From Clostridia bacterium (lineage in GTDB: Bacteria > Bacillota > Clostridia > Oscillospirales > Acutalibacteraceae): a stretch of DNA of 55,798 nucleotides. Shown here piece after piece: positions 25,648 through 27,387 of the stretch. The notes under the pieces are model-generated. The model worked only from the letters and a program-made list of their open reading frames with translations, had not been told where the DNA came from and ran no database searches. The translations under genes were made by a program, and so were the position numbers. The DNA is taken from the NCBI GenBank assembly GCA_017449935.1, contig JAFSYP010000094.1, forward strand, positions 1 to 55,798, given 5' to 3'. The first letter of the stretch is position 1; each line of letters opens with the position of its first letter.

Positions 25648-26274
25648 TCAGGATTTTGTCGGTTTATGCAGTTTTGCTTTTGCGCTCTGCGCCAGCTCCA
25701 CGATCTTGAAGCGCACGTCATAATGCGGATCACTGCCGAGTACGGCCTGACCGTCCTTGCTGAAGACGGCGTCCGTCGGCGCGCCGGCGGCCGGCAGGCA
25801 CAGCGGCGGGAACATCACGCACCACCAGTTCCGGCCAGCGCCGTCGCCGATGCGCACGCACACCGCCTCGTACGTTCCGGCCGGGACGGTCCATTCCCCG
25901 TATGTCCTCGTATTGAAATACGTGCGTTCGAGCGAGATGCGGACGCTGTCCGCACAGCCGTTTTCACGCAGCGTACGTTCGGCTGCGCGTTCGAGCGCGG
26001 CAAAATGCGGCGTGAGCTTTTCCTTTGCGCTCTGCACGTCGGCGGAGCCGTCGAATATCGCTTCGCCCTCCCGAAGCACCGTGTCGCGCACCAGCAGCTT
26101 GAGCCGCTGGTCTTCGGCGGCGTCGGAATTCGCGATCACATGAAGTCGCAGCATGTTTCTGTACAGGTCTTCGCACCCGCGGCAGAAGGACGCCGTCTGC
26201 ACGGTCAGGGAGATGACGAACGCCAGCAGCACGGCGATCTCCAAAGCGATAAGTCTTGAACGGTTTCTGAACAT
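25648..26274 (-). CDS. spoIIR: Stage II sporulation protein R
   Basis: In Bacillus SpoIIR is made in the forespore under sigma-F, is exported, and triggers SpoIIGA to process pro-sigma-E in the mother cell. This 208-residue protein has the expected N-terminal signal or anchor (about 8-27, LIALEIAVLLAFVISLTVQT), the conserved LRLHVIANSDAAEDQRLKLLVRD, a helical middle, and the family end with NWWCVMFPPLCLP. The ribosome site CGGAGGG is six T bases before the ATG and lies in the 3' arm of a 12-bp hairpin, downstream of a candidate forespore promoter (26315-26344). It places the organism in a sporulating lineage, though one gene does not prove that it sporulates. Confidence 0.95.
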   Translation of the reverse strand: MFRNRSRLIALEIAVLLAFVISLTVQTASFCRGCEDLYRNMLRLHVIANSDAAEDQRLKLLVRDTVLREGEAIFDGSADVQSAKEKLTPHFAALERAAERTLRENGCADSVRISLERTYFNTRTYGEWTVPAGTYEAVCVRIGDGAGRNWWCVMFPPLCLPAAGAPTDAVFSKDGQAVLGSDPHYDVRFKIVELAQSAKAKLHKPTKS

Positions 26275-26280
26275 AAAAAA

Positions 26281-26337
26281 CCCTCCGAAAAAAGTCTCTG
26301 CTTTCGTTTGCCGAAAGTATGGACATTTTTTCGGAGG
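26281..26337 (-). promoter_or_regulatory. Hairpin that sequesters the spoIIR ribosome site in read-through RNA
   Basis: A perfect 12-bp inverted repeat, 26282-26293 with 26326-26337 (CCTCCGAAAAAA and its complement), encloses 32 nt that include a second hairpin (CTTTCG 26301-26306, CGAAAG 26312-26317). On the minus strand the 3' arm contains the spoIIR Shine-Dalgarno CGGAGGG followed by six T bases and the ATG. RNA coming from mreB would pair the ribosome site; the structure could also terminate transcription. RNA started inside the loop would not contain the 5' arm. Confidence 0.75.
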
Positions 26338-26344
26338 TTTATTC
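26315..26344 (-). promoter_or_regulatory. Candidate forespore (sigma-F/sigma-G) promoter of spoIIR
   Basis: Minus strand: GAATA (26344-26340), 18-nt spacer, CATACTT (26321-26315), compared with the Bacillus sigma-G pattern GHATR-N18-CATNHTA (one mismatch) and the overlapping sigma-F specificity. Predicted transcription start is near 26308, inside the hairpin loop. Confidence 0.5.
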
Positions 26345-26355
26345 CTTTATTCTAT

Positions 26356-27387
26356 TCACGCGCTCGTGCCGATCTGCTGCGGCGTTTTGAAAAAGTAGCC
26401 GTTGCCGGACAGGATGTCCATGTGCCGAAGCGCCATGCCGATCCCGCGCGCGACACAGTTTGAGGGATCCTCCGCGACGAAGGTGCGCACGTGCGTCTCG
26501 CGTTCGATGCAGCCGGCGATTCCCGGCAGCAGCGCCGAACCGCCCGTCAGAATGATCCCGTTGTCGGAAATGTCCGCCAGCAGCTCCGGCGGCGTCTGCG
26601 AAAGCATGGAGCGGATCGCGTCGACGATCTGCCGCAGATGCTCGCGCAGCGCTAAAAACACCTCCGTCGTGGTCACTTCAAATACGACGGGCATACCGGT
26701 CAGGTAGCTTTTTCCCTTTACGGCAATGGCGATCTCCGCATCGCGCAGATACGCGCAGCCGATCTTCTTTTTGATCTGTTCCGCAGTCAGGCGGCCGACC
26801 AGAATATCCCGCTCGCGGCGGATATACCGGCGGATCGCCATGTCGAAGATATTGCCGCCGATCTTCAGGCTCTCATGCTCGGCCAGGGAACCCATCGTCA
26901 CAACGGCGATCTCCGTCGTGCCGCCGCCGACGTCCACGATCATCGTACCGCGCGGCTTGCGGTGATCAACGCCCGCGCCGATCGCGGCAGCCAGCGCCTT
27001 TTCGATCAGACACGCCTTCGCCGCGCCGGACGACGTCGCGATATTCAGCAGCGTGCGCTGCTCCAGACCGGTCAGTCCGGACGGCATACATAAAACAAGG
27101 TTCGGCTTAAATATCCGGTTGCCGCAGATCTGCTGCAAATAATAGCGAAGCAGATTCTGTGCGGCGGTAAAGTCCGAAACGACGCCTTCACGCAAAGGAT
27201 AATGCACACAGACAGAATCCGGCGTGCGGCCGATCATCTGGTACGCCTTCGAGCCCAAAGACAACGTCCTTCCGGTTCGGGTATCGCAGGCGGTGACGGC
27301 GTTCTCCGTCAGCACCACGCCCTTGCCTTCCACGAAAAAACGCACATGGTTCGTACCCAGGTCGATCCCGATATTGATACCGGGCAT
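26356..27387 (-). CDS. MreB/Mbl-family rod-shape actin homologue
   Basis: A 343-residue bacterial actin that guides lateral cell-wall synthesis. Phosphate loop 1 is IGIDLGTNHVRFF (about 6-18), phosphate 2 is MIVDVGGGTTEIAVV, and the adenosine loop is ILTGGSALLPG, followed by AEDPSNCVARGIGMAL. The IGAGVDHRKPRG and IGGNIFDMAIRRYI segments are typical of MreB and Mbl, not of DnaK or FtsA. Sequence reading does not settle MreB against Mbl. GGGGGGA precedes the ATG. It stands between the YwlG-family gene (42 nt upstream) and spoIIR (82 nt downstream), away from mreCD, which agrees better with an Mbl-like second copy. Confidence 0.88.
   Translation of the reverse strand: MPGINIGIDLGTNHVRFFVEGKGVVLTENAVTACDTRTGRTLSLGSKAYQMIGRTPDSVCVHYPLREGVVSDFTAAQNLLRYYLQQICGNRIFKPNLVLCMPSGLTGLEQRTLLNIATSSGAAKACLIEKALAAAIGAGVDHRKPRGTMIVDVGGGTTEIAVVTMGSLAEHESLKIGGNIFDMAIRRYIRRERDILVGRLTAEQIKKKIGCAYLRDAEIAIAVKGKSYLTGMPVVFEVTTTEVFLALREHLRQIVDAIRSMLSQTPPELLADISDNGIILTGGSALLPGIAGCIERETHVRTFVAEDPSNCVARGIGMALRHMDILSGNGYFFKTPQQIGTSA

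Follow-up and report, generated by a model that had tools for sequence, protein, structure and literature searches.

Between spoIIR and the mreB homologue upstream of it there is an inverted repeat that is predicted to fold in RNA as a large hairpin, with one arm in the spacer of a predicted forespore promoter and the other over most of the Shine-Dalgarno (SD) sequence of spoIIR. In relatives the two arms are complementary in a species-matched manner, and strong pairing is more frequent where the upstream gene reads into spoIIR. The hairpin is very probably a selected element tied to read-through, and it is likely that it blocks expression of spoIIR from read-through RNA, either by occlusion of the ribosome-binding site (RBS), by termination, or by both.

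The window, the whole stretch of DNA analysed, is the 55,798-nt contig JAFSYP010000094.1, from a member of the family Acutalibacteraceae (order Oscillospirales, class Clostridia in GTDB). The spoIIR product matches PF09551 (Spore_II_R; E 2e-44, 151.6 bits against a cut-off of 25) and scores 143.3 bits with the stricter TIGR02837, slightly under its cut-off of 151.9. The features of the locus are given in the table. Read-through into spoIIR presumably originates from the mreB homologue, the stop codon of which (26358-26356, minus strand) is separated by 11 nt from the -35 element. Profile searches also place a DUF436 gene among the genes at the locus. There is a sigma-A-like promoter, TTTACT-17 nt-TACAAT with a TG, at 25640-25612 (minus strand) between spoIIR and the GDPD phosphodiesterase gene downstream, which may therefore have a promoter of its own; in a scan for sigma-A-like promoters, sites were no more numerous than in shuffles. 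One sequence recovered in the searches, L002 (G000:C37:9864-9968), is a second stretch, 105 bases long and 75% identical to the query spanning the mreB homologue, and is perhaps another mreB-family gene in the genome.

Table. Features of the mreB-spoIIR interval and its flanking genes (positions in the window)
Feature	Position	Strand	Basis
spoIIR CDS, 208 aa, ATG at 26274	25648..26274	-	PF09551, TIGR02837
MreB/Mbl homologue, co-directional, upstream of spoIIR	26356..27387	-	PF06723 (E 9.3e-108); NF010539 above cut-off
-35 element GAATA, sigma-F-type	26340..26344	-	Sequence; conserved in relatives
5' arm CCTCCGAAAAAA, carrying the anti-SD, within the promoter spacer	26326..26337	-	Sequence, repeat search, fold
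-10 element GTCCATACT, 15 nt past the -35	26316..26324	-	Conservation; exact pattern match
Predicted forespore transcription start, inside the 5-nt apical loop 26311-26307	26308	-	Placed at the 8th base past the -10 9-mer; loop from fold
3' arm TTTTTTCGGAGG	26282..26293	-	Sequence, repeat search, fold
Shine-Dalgarno GGAGGG, five of six bases within the 3' arm	26281..26286	-	Sequence
T6, U tract of the terminator-like hairpin, directly abutting the ATG	26275..26280	-	Sequence

The perfect 12-bp inverted repeat of the original prediction is real: direct reading of the minus strand and a repeat search both give arms at 26337-26326 and 26293-26282 that are complementary throughout. The claim that the SD lies inside the 3' arm holds for all of GGAGGG but its last base (26281), which is outside the arm. 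The segment 26275-26343 is predicted to fold at -28.5 kcal/mol, against -11.0 (sd 2.7) in 200 shuffles, none of which equalled it (z -6.4), and with 326 to 826 nt of surrounding sequence the 12 arm pairs hold a probability of 0.89 to 1.00. The SD core GGAGG has an unpaired probability of 0.00 in read-through RNA (0.106 in long context). The hairpin also fits the form of an intrinsic terminator, with a G+C stem and then T6 directly after GGAGGG; a simple terminator scan, which considered only loops of 3-8, did not report it. In two loci of the same genus (L004 and L005) the SD sits past a T run, and longer pairing with the promoter region still covers it.

Sigma-F-type promoters have a consensus made up of a -35 GHATA and a -10 element. 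The spacing between these is given as 15 nt in one study (PMC5942855). The promoter originally proposed, GAATA-N18-CATACTT, is the same site as GAATA-N15-GTCCATACT, which has the commonest spacing in relatives. A sample of 200 genomes of the window's family yielded SpoIIR in 171. Of 133 spoIIR loci collected, 132 were matched, and with L078 dropped and duplicates collapsed there were 121 unique upstream regions, of which 48 carry the code of the window's family, 3 belong to other families in the order, and 70 come from named records that lack a family code. A two-block promoter matrix, seeded with a sigma-F consensus and then trained on the same regions, finds a promoter (score > 10) in 113 of them and in 3 of 363 dinucleotide shuffles. 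The conserved form is GAATA or GTATA followed, mostly after 15 or 14 nt (88 and 26 of 117 sites, respectively), by a -10 like GCCCATACT; the window promoter has a spacer of 15 and a matrix score of 22.1. A second set of loci, 64 of 80 after removal of 13 duplicates and 3 without a usable start or too short, is a fairer test than the training set, since the matrix was frozen beforehand; here a promoter is present in 57 of the 64 new loci, with a spacer of 15 in 48 of the 57. Within the window's own genome the strict promoter pattern is not enriched, with 10 exact matches, of which the spoIIR promoter is one, against 8 for the reversed pattern, and the evidence for the promoter is therefore its conservation before spoIIR and not its rarity.

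The original prediction had left the choice between sigma-F and sigma-G to one side. According to PMC3789822, sigma-F promoters are distinguished by a G upstream of the -10 and by no conserved A downstream. Of 171 sequences, 141 have a G where the -10 block begins and only 11 an A just downstream of it, so that the base signature of this conserved promoter looks sigma-F-like rather than sigma-G-like; the sigma factor and the transcription start at 26308 are predictions from these motifs.

Coevolution of promoter and leader was assessed by pairing each upstream segment, which begins shortly before the -35 and ends at the predicted start, with the leader (predicted start to start codon) of the same or of permuted species. 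In 112 of the 121 loci, pairing with the own leader is -18.82 kcal/mol, against -10.67 for permuted leaders (sd 0.30), the best of 10,000 permutations reaching -12.0. The difference is seen within the 46 loci that have a family code (-20.5 against -11.8 kcal/mol, sd 0.53), in the 63 named loci (-17.6 against -10.1 kcal/mol, sd 0.40), and in the second set (n=57; -18.02 against -10.25 kcal/mol, sd 0.40, again below all 10,000 permutations). For other families of the order, a promoter is present in 14 of 20 loci (1 without a start), and the 11 left after removal of 3 of the same family give -15.9 against -10.5 (sd 1.05, best of 5,000 -15.5). Outside the order the pattern of promoter and pairing is patchy: in other orders of the class a promoter is found in 19 of 40 loci, with pairing of -12.2 against -8.9 kcal/mol (sd 0.62).

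The arms themselves were compared over nine columns that run from directly ahead of the -10 into it. This 9-nt promoter segment pairs with the leader at 7 positions or more in 93 of 169 sequences, where 24.8 are expected by swapping; among the 75 distinct arm pairs, 8 of the 9 columns have more than one Watson-Crick type, and as selection of the best match inflates such per-column counts, the swap figure serves as their control. The covariation and conservation of the arms in relatives, on which the original prediction had staked its reading, are thus present. Some of the pairing would nonetheless be inevitable, as the TCC of the -10 and the GGA of the SD must pair weakly. One column is C-G wherever it is Watson-Crick paired (72 of the 75 arm pairs), and mismatched species already reach about -10.6 kcal/mol. 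It is extremely improbable that the whole hairpin is chance complementarity of this kind, with the rest due to drift: in neither set did any of the 10,000 permutations reach the matched pairing, though relatedness should favour the mismatched pairs.

In the 99 of 112 loci in which an SD was called, its mean unpaired probability is 0.294 in read-through RNA, 0.552 in RNA from the predicted start, and 0.410 with the upstream sequence shuffled. This measure is blunt because the AAAGGA is only half within the stem, and the swap and opening energies were therefore added. In two loci, L308 and L324, there is a short hairpin, CCTCTGCC / GGCAGAGG, with a T tract just before the start codon. Its very small loop would put the predicted start at or within the 3' arm. 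The pipeline scored no excess pairing here, so that the counts of strong hairpins may be low.

A hairpin that guards against read-through should be of use only where transcription of the upstream gene runs towards spoIIR. Gene direction was called by a coding model with a cross-validated balanced accuracy of 0.90-0.97. Calls by longest ORF (p=0.11) were set aside, as antisense ORFs had been taken for genes in several loci; by eye, the sequence upstream in L005 and L006 ends like mreB. In the first set, loci with co-directional neighbours within 300 nt (n=88) have an excess pairing of -9.6 kcal/mol and 71 are strong, whereas those with divergent neighbours (n=15) have an excess of -1.9 kcal/mol and 4 are strong (p=1.6e-5). 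The second set gives -9.4 kcal/mol for co-directional (n=42, 31 strong) and -3.5 for divergent neighbours (n=9, 4 strong; p=0.020). Pooled, strong pairing is present in 102 of 130 co-directional loci within 300 nt and in 8 of 24 divergent loci (p=1.7e-6), as the original reading would predict, in counts where the relatives are not independent of one another. Where orientation is confident (a coding score of at least 1, with the neighbour within 400 nt if divergent or 300 nt if co-directional), a subset defined after the data had been inspected, the counts are 100 of 126 and 2 of 17 (p=6e-8).

In a hand-picked Pfam check, 8 of 10 divergent neighbours (from 16 divergent calls) match a family on the predicted strand, as do all 10 co-directional neighbours, 7 of which are GHMP kinases. 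There are exceptions in both directions: the divergent locus L043, with a Pfam-confirmed neighbour, keeps the hairpin, and the co-directional L131 and L349 are without it. When each of the 15 divergent rows is compared with its three nearest co-directional neighbours, some of these being reused, the comparison gives p=0.0034; tree-based independent contrasts are underpowered, with 8 supported (2.7 for, 0.1 against, 5.2 undecided; median p 0.25).

The dependence on direction also bears on whether the repeat acts as DNA. It is palindromic and overlaps the promoter, as would be expected of an operator at which a dimeric repressor covers the -10. In such a case the presence of the repeat should not follow the direction of the upstream gene, as it does, nor should the arm sequences vary as widely as they do, with both sides changing across the distinct pairs, and the -10 lies anywhere between 10 and 90 nt from the start codon (116 sites). 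An operator is therefore very improbable, and the reading of the repeat as a guard against read-through RNA is preferred.

The blocking of read-through RNA could take place in two ways, and the hairpins carry marks of both. Among 78 strong hairpins, at least 3 SD bases are in the 3' arm in 64 and a U tract follows the last G-C pair in 43; 35 have both, 29 the SD only, 8 the U tract only, and 6 neither. Within the 14 nt that precede the start, 56 of 121 spoIIR regions have a T4 tract, as compared with 2 of 27 for gpr, 2 of 22 for spoIVB, and 6 of 29 for sigG (corrected starts). Before spoIIR it is found in 52 of 95 co-directional and 1 of 15 divergent loci, a contrast that is weak in the second set (27 of 53 against 4 of 10). 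Since 43 of the 78 carry a U tract, termination may matter as much as RBS hiding. That mreB read-through RNA would be blocked or stopped, as first proposed, has comparative support from the pairing, its direction dependence, and the cost of opening the RBS, while we infer the split between the two modes.

The U tracts raise the possibility, which is a real if doubtful one, that the hairpin is a plain intrinsic terminator of the upstream gene, its overlap with the promoter and SD being a by-product of a short intergenic space. The stem and U tract of the window and of the 43 strong hairpins would suit this, as would the 8 hairpins that have a U tract with fewer than 3 SD bases in the arm. It does not account for the 29 strong hairpins that, under the criterion applied, hide the SD but have no U tract, or for sigG, which has the pairing but few T tracts. 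Nor does a lack of space explain the overlap, because 11 of the 16 loci with 150-300 nt to the upstream gene still have strong pairing over the promoter and leader.

In the 147 loci where the predicted start is about 16 nt or more ahead of the start codon, the mean cost of opening positions -14 to +3 drops from 12.4 kcal/mol for read-through RNA to 5.1 for RNA begun at the predicted start; the read-through value is the higher one in 136. The difference is 7.8 kcal/mol in co-directional loci (n=123) and 4.5 in divergent loci (n=21). For the window, the cost falls from 20.8 to 11.3 kcal/mol, the latter being high because early codons can pair with both the SD and the U tract. The freeing of the RBS in forespore RNA that had been proposed is therefore seen as a clear drop, but "exposed" is too strong a word for the window alone, where the RBS is still fairly structured. 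A hairpin that instead tunes translation of the forespore RNA, like the small RBS hairpin of B. subtilis sigG, would agree with the fairly closed RBS predicted in that RNA. This is unlikely, however: shuffled sequences fold as well as the window's forespore RNA does (z -0.19), and transcription is predicted to start downstream of the conserved 5' arm.

RNA that runs in from the vegetative gene upstream, in this case the mreB homologue, would carry both arms of the hairpin. It would fold so that the SD is paired, with the U tract next to it at the start codon, and would then either end at the U tract or be unavailable for translation. RNA begun in the forespore, at the loop, would lack the 5' arm; the large hairpin cannot form in RNA from spoIIR's own promoter, because that arm (26337-26326) is upstream of the predicted start at 26308. 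We infer the start site and sigma factor, the termination, the block to translation, and the purpose of the element.

Similar pairing was sought before other genes, by comparing the RBS region with the approximately 70 nt before it, as z against shuffles. The regions used were 29 of 30 for sigG, 27 of 30 for gpr, and 22 of 30 for spoIVB, those cut by contig ends or with profile matches that start late being omitted, and 28 of 30 for spoVT. The mean z is -2.11 for spoIIR (n=121), -1.93 for sigG (n=29), and -1.41 for spoVT (n=28), as against +0.08 for gpr (n=27) and -0.73 for spoIVB (n=22). The spoIIR design is thus shown by sigG and partly by spoVT, and not by gpr and spoIVB.

In the window's own genome, the sigG region (L205, contig C32) has arms CTCCCGATTTC, with the anti-SD in the promoter spacer, and GAAATCGGGAG, at the RBS, with a predicted energy of -30.3 kcal/mol; the opening cost is 21.8 kcal/mol for read-through RNA, as against 6.8 for RNA begun at the predicted start. 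This sigG-like gene scores 420 bits, under the TIGR02850 cut-off of 457, as is the case in 41 of 41 genomes searched. The genome also holds a SpoIIGA match (PF03419, E 8.6e-61). The sigG gene is at C32:5630, and spoIIGA, with an adjoining partial sigma-factor match, is at C66:40188-41466, on separate contigs of a fragmented assembly; as the two are on different contigs, sigG may not follow sigE here, unlike in B. subtilis.

For spoVT, z is below -3 in 7 of 28 regions, and in L390, L391, L379, and L402 there is, by eye, an anti-SD between -35-like and -10-like elements. L394 is also among the spoVT regions with an anti-SD, such as AATCTCC or CCTGCGG, which come from several genera. The spoIIR promoter matrix gave no score above 10 in the spoVT regions displayed. 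We give about equal belief and doubt to the wider proposal that forespore control genes in this order (spoIIR, sigG, and in part spoVT) share a design in which an anti-SD in or beside the gene's own promoter spacer makes the RNA a record of its promoter, so that only forespore-born RNA would be translatable, the lock being gained or lost as the upstream gene turns.

In phage T4 gene e and the transposase genes of IS10 and IS50, the RBS is paired in RNA from outside and free in RNA from an internal promoter. These are phage and mobile-element genes, whereas spoIIR is concerned with developmental compartment control. An ordinary intergenic intrinsic terminator likewise has a stem and U tract after the upstream gene, but in spoIIR the promoter, RBS, and start region are built into the hairpin. 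The closest likeness is to B. subtilis sigG (spoIIIG), for which it was suggested that a large hairpin keeps read-through RNA from PspoIIG untranslated (Masuda 1988; Sun 1991, cited by PMC5942855). There too, by the same account (PMC5942855), a forespore gene lies behind a gene read by another sigma factor, and RNA made from the forespore gene's own promoter cannot form the hairpin. The differences are that the spoIIR hairpin is before another gene and in another bacterial class, that it is often terminator-like with a U tract near the start codon, that its arms coevolve across the family and order, and that its presence tracks the direction of the upstream gene. The small hairpin of B. subtilis sigG is also over the RBS of a forespore gene but, as described in PMC5942855, forms in the gene's own transcript and damps expression 2-4-fold, with no read-through lock.

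The original prediction named no precedent for RBS sequestration at spoIIR, and no report of a read-through hairpin before spoIIR was found in the open-licence literature, as judged by title and the start of the abstract among the best matches. What is new is the gene, the merging of a terminator with the RBS and promoter, the occurrence of coevolving arms throughout the family and into its order, and the way the hairpin depends on the direction of the neighbour; the logic has already been proposed for B. subtilis sigG.

According to PMC3789822, SpoIIR is required for sigma-E activation in C. difficile, and forced early expression of spoIIR in B. subtilis leads to processing of pro-sigma-E without sigma-F. 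The same paper describes residual sigma-F-independent expression of spoIIR in C. difficile, which suggests that a tight lock is not universal. SpoIIR links the forespore to the mother cell, and leaky expression of spoIIR from a housekeeping neighbour could break this link. A protein-independent lock in the RNA itself, acting in cis, would account for the presence of spoIIR behind mreB or GHMP-kinase genes. Such a lock offers a direct test of whether read-through selects on intergenic sequence, and the hairpin gives a sequence signature by which compartment-locked genes could be found in uncultured spore formers.
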